Part shown: in pieces, positions 37,216 to 38,022 of the stretch
Layout: the number at the start of each line of letters is the position of its first letter
How positions within the stretch are numbered: position 1 is the first letter of the stretch
From: Crocinitomicaceae bacterium
GTDB lineage: Bacteria; Bacteroidota; Bacteroidia; Flavobacteriales_G; Salibacteraceae
Direction: 5' to 3'
DNA length: 64,000 nucleotides
Assembly: GCA_002713215.1 (NCBI GenBank)
Contig: PAVO01000019.1
Coordinates: forward strand, 310,001 to 374,000
Position numbers and translations under genes: made by a program
The notes under the pieces: generated by a model
What the model was told of the DNA's origin: nothing
Seen by the model: only the letters and a program-made list of their open reading frames with translations
The model's database searches: none

Positions 37216-37223
37216 TACATTTG
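37216..37223 (+). promoter_or_regulatory. -7 promoter element for the structured leader and NYN gene
   Basis: TACATTTG is an exact match. It predicts a transcript start near 37229, just before the first stem of the structured RNA. A TTG at 37187-37189 lies 26 bases upstream, longer than the usual spacer. Confidence 0.55.
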
Positions 37224-37229
37224 TTTCAT

Positions 37230-37316
37230 AATGTCCAATGAGCGGTTTTGTCACCTTCAGAGTTTAATTTTCTGAAGGATTGATAGCGACAAAAACTGAC
37301 TTTGGACTTTTTTTAT
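37230..37316 (+). ncRNA. Three-tier structured leader RNA or small RNA with U-tract
   Basis: Three nested stems share one axis. The outer stem pairs GTCCAA (37233) with TTGGAC (37302), the middle TTTTGTC (37246) with GACAAAA (37288), and the apical CCTTCAGA (37254) with TCTGAAGG (37271) around a 9-base loop. A 9-base asymmetric bulge, ATTGATAGC, lies between the apical and middle stems, and seven U follow the outer stem. It starts where the promoter predicts and ends 15 bases before the NYN gene. It matches no riboswitch class I know. It may be a terminating small RNA, an attenuator or an autoregulatory leader. Confidence 0.6.
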
Positions 37317-37329
37317 TTAAAAAGTAATA

Positions 37330-38022
37330 ATGAAAACTGCAATTCTAGTTGACGGTGGTTTTTTTCTGAAAAGATACCAGTATATTGAAGGATTTGAGAA
37401 AGGTGATGATGCCGAAACAGTAGCAAAGAATCTAGTCTCTTATTGTTTTAAACACATACAACGTATAAATAACTATCGCAACCGGTACAATTTGCCTCCA
37501 ACGGAGCTTTATCGTATTTTCTTTTATGACGCCAAGCCTTTCGATGGAGACTCAACTAATCCAATTTCTGGTAAGGCAATGAGTTTCAAAAAAACAGAGG
37601 TTTTTAAGTTCAGAAATGACTTATTTACATTCTTAAAGAAGCAACGGAAAATTGCATTGAGACTTGGCTTTTTAAAGAACTCATCAAAAAAGTGGAACAT
37701 TAAATCTAGACATACTAAACCCTTACTTGATGGAAAAATAAAGCTTGAAAACTTAAATGCTTCTGACTTGGATTTTCCTTTAAATCAAAAAGCAGTTGAT
37801 ATGAAGGTAGGTTTGGATATTGCTACTCTTGCCTTTAAGGAACAGGTAGACCAAATAATTTTGATTGCTGGTGATAGTGATTTTGTGCCTGCGGCCAAAT
37901 TTGCCAGAAGGGAAGGAGTTGATTTTATTCTAGATCCAATGCTTAATAACATTGACCCATCGCTCCACGAGCACATTGATGGATTAATGACAATAAAGCG
38001 AATGAATGAAGGAAGCAATTGA
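37330..38022 (+). CDS. NYN-domain protein (LabA/PIN-like putative RNase)
   Basis: Protein of 230 aa with the NYN domain, a PIN-like metal-dependent nuclease fold. The acidic residues expected in the site are present: Asp8 in AILVDGGF, Asp157 and Asp163 in KAVDMKVGLDIA, and Asp182/Asp184 in IAGDSDFVPAAKFAR. A basic insert (about 100-135, KKQRKIALRLGFLKNSSKKW) could bind RNA. It lies directly behind the structured leader, so cleavage of its own leader is an attractive guess. NYN proteins act in RNA turnover and in some defence systems; no defence partners are near. Confidence 0.85.
   Translation: MKTAILVDGGFFLKRYQYIEGFEKGDDAETVAKNLVSYCFKHIQRINNYRNRYNLPPTELYRIFFYDAKPFDGDSTNPISGKAMSFKKTEVFKFRNDLFTFLKKQRKIALRLGFLKNSSKKWNIKSRHTKPLLDGKIKLENLNASDLDFPLNQKAVDMKVGLDIATLAFKEQVDQIILIAGDSDFVPAAKFARREGVDFILDPMLNNIDPSLHEHIDGLMTIKRMNEGSN

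Follow-up and report, generated by a model that had tools for sequence, protein, structure and literature searches.

A structured RNA preceding NYN-domain nuclease genes in prophages, plasmids and chromosomes, and its possible role in a two-part RNA-nuclease module

The antitoxin RNAs of type III toxin-antitoxin systems are tandem repeats that fold as pseudoknots, and the fold of their toxins differs from that of NYN nucleases. To our knowledge, no upstream RNA is known for the LabA-like/NYN nucleases MARF1 and VPA0982. In the AbiF/RCd22 system of C. difficile prophages, an RNA antitoxin encoded upstream of the protein gene, with its own promoter, a terminator and read-through, binds and neutralises the protein (PMC12373285). 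A literature search, with subscription journals mostly beyond its reach, turned up no earlier account in which an NYN gene is paired with an RNA. Such a pair is described here.

The RNA and the nuclease gene at the window locus

The locus was found in a window of 64,000 nt (the whole stretch of DNA that was analysed) from a Crocinitomicaceae bacterium. Its features, in window positions, are as follows.

37216..37223, + strand: probable promoter -7 box TACATTTG, of the TAnnTTTG type, predicted from sequence
37230..37314, + strand: structured RNA of about 82-85 nt with three nested stems and a U-run (z -4.08)
37233..37238, + strand: outer stem, 5' arm GTCCAA (6 bp with 37302-37307)
37246..37252, + strand: middle stem, 5' arm TTTTGTC (7 bp with 37288-37294)
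37254..37261, + strand: inner stem, 5' arm CCTTCAGA (8 bp with 37271-37278)
37271..37278, + strand: inner stem, 3' arm TCTGAAGG (partner of 37254-37261)
37288..37294, + strand: middle stem, 3' arm GACAAAA (partner of 37246-37252)
37302..37307, + strand: outer stem, 3' arm TTGGAC (partner of 37233-37238)
37308..37314, + strand: run of seven T, which with the outer stem makes an intrinsic-terminator-like end; the T-rich tail is kept across relatives
37330..38022, + strand: NYN-domain nuclease gene (ATG at 37330, 230 aa, PHROG 5783)

The three nested stems (6, 7 and 8 bp) and seven U of the preliminary description proved exact on direct reading of the sequence. The minimum free energy of the RNA was -27.1 kcal/mol compared with a mean of -14.6 for shuffled sequences, and none of 200 shuffles equalled it. 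Equally good energies were found in 64 of the 12,784 87-nt segments of the window, either strand (about 0.5%); folding energy by itself does not set this RNA apart in the window, and the weight for it is the comparison with its relatives.

TAnnTTTG is the -7 consensus of Bacteroidota. The promoter box proposed ahead of the RNA fits it, and similar promoter-like boxes lie 10-15 nt ahead of the RNA in three flavobacterial relatives (L002, L003 and L005, the last with one mismatch). The U-run ends 15 nt before the NYN ORF and, judged from its sequence, should stop most transcripts ahead of that ORF. A terminator scan of the window did not list the hairpin before the NYN ORF because the scanner was restricted to loops of 3-8 nt.

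An Rfam scan of the window copy gave no match, relaxed threshold included, and the gathering score of TEG147 (RF03535; 56.1 bits) was not reached. The abiF RNA (RF03085) had no Rfam match in the window or the scanned relatives. A riboswitch or other Rfam class was rejected for the window copy, as none matched. Two further candidates were set aside: a dispersed repeat, since the genome contains the RNA sequence only once, and tandem antitoxin repeats, since only one structured unit is present in the window and across relatives.

The window protein matched Pfam NYN (PF01936) with 36.7 bits (cut-off 24.2) and no other Pfam family. All 47 aligned members match PHROG 5783, annotated as of unknown function, and D8, D67, D157, D163, D182 and D184 are invariant in the 47 relatives, giving an acidic site of candidate catalytic residues. 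With the window protein, a sequence search of solved structures returned nothing at E <= 0.01, and among PDB structures plain Foldseek found none at E <= 0.001. The NYN fold was recovered by VIA from an AF2 model (pLDDT 92.7): the MARF1 NYN domain (5yaa; Z 15.8, 2.6 Å over 144 residues) and VPA0982 (2qip; Z 15.0) stood well above the remaining structures. PADLOC gave only weak matches of the generic NYN and HEC-09 models to the last third of the protein. Taken with the Pfam match and the invariant acidic residues, the predicted structure indicates that the window protein is an NYN-fold nuclease.

Protein homologues at 77-78% identity are present in L002, L003 and L005, and the DNA upstream of them aligns well with the window across the RNA only, the RNA being nearly intact and the flanks diverged. 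The comparison of homologous upstream regions, proposed earlier as a check on the fold, bore it out: seven of the 24 pairs predicted over the four flavobacterial copies have two-sided compensatory changes. Such changes occur in the inner stem among the flavobacterial copies and in the middle stem in L005; the outer stem is unvarying in all four, and its equivalent covaries strongly in the wider family described below.

In the window the NYN ORF neighbours genes for HMG-CoA reductase (on the opposite strand) and fructose-1,6-bisphosphatase. Each of the four flavobacterial cassettes has a different gene neighbourhood, and therefore the RNA and the NYN gene travel together. No clean empty site for the window locus was found at the fructose-1,6-bisphosphatase loci of 24 relatives, which adjoin neither NYN nor HMG-CoA reductase genes; because gene order is not conserved, an insertion boundary cannot be drawn there. 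The protein is sporadic in Bacteroidota, with any match, several of them weak, in 4 of 100 relatives and in 15 of 395 genomes of the phylum.

The wider RNA family and its genomic setting

Full-length relatives of the protein, at 40-51% identity, were found in records of phages (Streptococcus, Lactococcus, Dorea, Moraxella, Proteus and Escherichia) and plasmids (Thermus, Campylobacter, Xanthomonas, Aeromonas and Pseudomonas). A scan of viral contigs with the single window protein gave no match, and one with the alignment profile gave 216 relatives. Eighty of these loci, chosen by protein similarity and not by presence of the RNA, were fetched, and almost all have a hairpin RNA with a T-rich end just upstream of the NYN gene. 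In the relatives the RNA is compact (about 60 nt) and occupies the same place. Counting prophages, plasmids and chromosomes together, the protein relatives have 40-52% identity and the RNA-NYN pair recurs in no fewer than five bacterial phyla; this recurrence makes the pair probably a mobile two-part module and not the leader of one genome. The preliminary description was right to tie a structured RNA to the NYN gene; the comparison refines it, the RNA being one member of a widespread pairing and not a private leader.

Some of the protein relatives have surroundings of note. After the repressor of an E. coli lambdoid prophage the NYN ORF is split or shortened in the annotation (L256:4196-5053 and L257:4196-4585); in RefSeq E. 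coli the NYN query is matched in part by 996 genomes, only 73 of which cover 80% of it. On a Thermus plasmid (L027) the NYN gene lies between helicase-related and N-6 DNA methylase genes, a defence-like neighbourhood, and on the Pseudomonas plasmid pF003 a RelE/HigA-type toxin-antitoxin pair follows it (L249:3957-4542).

An alignment of 61 RNAs was folded by RNAalifold. The consensus nests three stems, of 8 bp (outer), 2 bp (middle) and 4 bp (inner), with two-sided changes at 14 of 14 pairs. Paired cells made up 92.5%, compared with 70.9% after shuffling, and the covariation score was 0.699, compared with 0.276 for shuffled alignments (0/500) and at most 0.257 when the structure was slid. Even the short middle stem takes varied pair types (columns 20-47: GC 29, UA 12, AU 6 and CG 5). 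Conservation extends to unpaired positions: a GUA lies on the 5' side and an A on the 3' side, with an AU between them in the apical loop, and the unpaired G, U, A, A, U and A columns are conserved at 90% or more. A plain terminator would need no such columns.

A covariance model built from 27 odd-numbered loci was tested on 40 even-numbered viral loci. In 36 of the 40 it located the RNA immediately upstream of the NYN ORF, all at E <= 1.1e-4, some training and test loci being related and the test not fully independent. The four misses were L032, L066 and two loci with the enterobacterial variant, L108 and L110. The held-out model also found the RNA before the NYN gene in L010, L022, L024 and L030. 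Independent matches of the full model precede NYN genes on plasmids of Xanthomonas (E 2e-6), Aeromonas (0.0017) and Thermus (0.004), and another precedes the chromosomal NYN gene in L009 (E 6e-5); weak NYN relatives (L006-L020) gave no convincing upstream RNA. A scan with the short pattern TTGGCAGTANGCCNCC was not specific enough, most of its matches being noise, and 39-nt matches in two Bacteroidota genomes (L244 and L245) were set aside as most of the model was missing.

Three RNAs before NYN genes score above the TEG147 gathering score (L080, 80.9; L060, 58.3; L049, 56.3 bits), and many others match TEG147 below it. The claim that the RNA matches no family therefore stands for the window copy and fails for the Bacillota-type copies before homologous NYN genes, which match RF03535 with up to 80.9 bits. 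A published list of bona fide S. aureus sRNAs includes Teg147, with a transcript length of 60 nt (PMC5826253), and its expression from a genomic island has been described (PMC3053349); the Rfam family was built in a training course (PMC7779021). Rfam types it as cis-regulatory, and it is an orphan family to which no function is assigned. It has the same length and stem order as the compact RNAs before NYN genes; its Rfam model is a narrow one, with no partner gene named, and the link made here is through the RNA match.

The window RNA was unmatched by the compact-RNA model R1 at E up to 1 and is a longer variant missed by that model. Its locus has the same architecture: three nested stems, an inner internal loop that is longer on the 3' side, a T-rich tail and a PHROG 5783 NYN gene directly downstream. 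More generally, the model gives no match, or no significant one, to the enterobacterial, Pseudomonas and flavobacterial RNAs, which keep the order of three nested stems and the T-rich tail. As there is no sequence-structure match, the kinship of these variants to the compact RNAs is argued from position, stem order and the homologous protein. Upstream of the Campylobacter ORF, where the model was also unmatched, the motif GGCAGUAACC...GGCAAACC is visible by eye. Four loci (L083, L091, L094 and L105) have, by eye, an extra 5' hairpin, e.g. ACAACG...CGTTGT, which follows the promoter-like site and precedes the conserved RNA, and the transcript there may therefore be about 100 nt long with two domains.

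The anatomy was measured in 72 viral loci. The gap from the end of the stem to the NYN start has a median of 24 nt and contains a motif like a Shine-Dalgarno sequence in 57 of the 72. A sigma-70-like site scoring at least 9/12 lies within 75 nt ahead of the RNA in 49 of the 72, the best score averaging 9.2, compared with 7.4 in shuffled sequence. The 24-nt gap is too short for a further promoter, and expression of the NYN gene would therefore most likely need read-through of the U-run.

In the viral loci a repressor gene of CI-type HTH or S24 kind often precedes NYN; the gene after NYN has a tyrosine-integrase Pfam match in 26 of 48 viral loci and a serine-recombinase (resolvase/recombinase) match in 8. 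The prophage copies therefore sit between repressor and integrase, the position of a lysogeny module. This interval is a usual site of lysogen-expressed genes, including exclusion and defence genes. Divergence of the RNA correlates with that of NYN (r 0.27; 0/299 permutations; 0.36 for the RNA core in the integrase subset) and not with that of the neighbouring integrase (r -0.006). The RNA co-diverges with NYN, and not with the integrase, the correlations being modest.

Some copies of the RNA stand apart from an NYN gene. The one other strong match of the held-out model, in 240 kb, was a second copy in L036 (L036:3444-3503; E 2.6e-17), directly before a tyrosine integrase ORF and downstream of the NYN gene; it is perhaps a relic of a lost second NYN gene, or a sign that the RNA can serve other genes. 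Strong copies with no detectable NYN nearby were seen at L115:9255-9314, L121:3624-3683 and L243:314-379, the last near a contig end.

Possible roles of the RNA

The reading that we prefer, and hold at even balance, is that the pair is a mobile module of non-coding RNA and RNase in which the RNA binds and restrains the NYN protein in trans, as in type III toxin-antitoxin systems or AbiF/RCd22. A promoter just ahead of the RNA would drive transcription, and most polymerases would stop at the U-run closing the outer stem, giving a free RNA of 60-90 nt, while a minority would read through into the nuclease gene some 15-30 nt downstream. The NYN protein would be bound by the excess of free RNA via the conserved internal loops and so kept inactive, in the manner of an antitoxin. 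Feedback on the NYN mRNA is also possible because this RNA forms part of its leader. If transcription or RNA pools were disturbed, e.g. by an infecting phage, the nuclease would be released; it would then be toxic and could serve in defence. Several findings count against this reading: the RNA is single-copy, unlike the ToxI repeats; the window RNA was missed by the model (E > 1); there are RNAs without NYN (L115, L121 and L243) and one before an integrase (L036); the PADLOC matches are weak and generic; and the co-divergence correlations are modest. The wider proposal, of a new phylum-crossing RNA-protein class in which a nested-hairpin RNA with its own terminator restrains an NYN nuclease for prophage or plasmid defence or addiction, TEG147 being the first of its RNAs to be observed, is tentative and falls a little short of that balance.

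The main rival, possible and on the whole rather unlikely, is leader attenuation. The RNA would act only in cis, as a conditional terminator answering to the NYN protein, which would bind or cut its own leader, or to some other ligand, and the short RNA would be a by-product. A constant position some 24 nt upstream of the ORF, the U-run and the conserved loops are what such a leader would have; the cis-regulatory type given to TEG147 and the L036 copy directly before an integrase ORF also favour it. However, an unsystematic look noticed no alternative, anti-terminator fold, the RNA has been kept at three sites that lack NYN, and S. aureus is reported to make a 60-nt sRNA as a free transcript (PMC5826253).

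It is improbable that the RNA is a cofactor or guide for the activity or targeting of the nuclease, and not its inhibitor. RNA and nuclease do co-diverge, and the RNA combines a high degree of structure with conserved loops, but the 61-RNA alignment has no variable, spacer-like segment of constant length, and NYN nucleases such as MARF1 work without a guide. A plain intrinsic terminator insulating NYN from upstream transcription would explain a hairpin and U-run between the repressor gene and NYN in prophages; this is very improbable given the conserved unpaired positions, the covarying 2-bp middle stem and the internal loops, which weaken a terminator. Least probable of all is a prophage element regulating integrase expression, with NYN acting on the integrase mRNA: an integrase or recombinase does follow NYN in about 34 of the 48 viral loci tested and one RNA copy directly precedes an integrase (L036), but RNA divergence does not track the integrase, and chromosomal and plasmid copies have none adjoining.

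If restraint of the nuclease by the RNA is the true role, the orphan TEG147 and the uncharacterised phage family PHROG 5783 get a common explanation, and NYN nucleases are added to the few RNases that have a regulatory RNA as a neighbouring partner. Because the pair is compact, self-contained and carried by phages of laboratory hosts (E. coli and Lactococcus), binding, toxicity and phage resistance are quickly testable. Even a leader only would be a widespread autoregulatory RNA, previously unlinked to its gene in the literature searched.

Comparison with known systems

The window protein shares its fold with the LabA-like/NYN nucleases MARF1 (5yaa) and VPA0982 (2qip), about 85 of its 230 residues lying outside the aligned core. 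It is not of the ToxN, CptN or TenpN family, Pfam NYN being the one family matched and its fold that of NYN. The type III systems ToxIN, CptIN and TenpIN have the same order of RNA, terminator and RNase and are likewise carried on mobile elements, the order and the U-run being read here from sequence; they differ in that the RNA here, in the window and its relatives, is a single nested hairpin without tandem repeats. As for AbiF/RCd22, AbiF is a protein of the Abi_2 (AbiD/F) family whereas the RNA's partner here is NYN, and RCd22 holds two abiF motifs (RF03085) upstream of a separate terminator whereas the RNAs here have no RF03085 match. Because its RNA is a single nested hairpin and its protein an NYN nuclease, the pair is by sequence a member of neither type III nor AbiF/RCd22. 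It resembles the latter in being prophage-borne and in having a structured RNA upstream of the protein gene, and for RCd22 neutralisation of the protein by that RNA has been shown.
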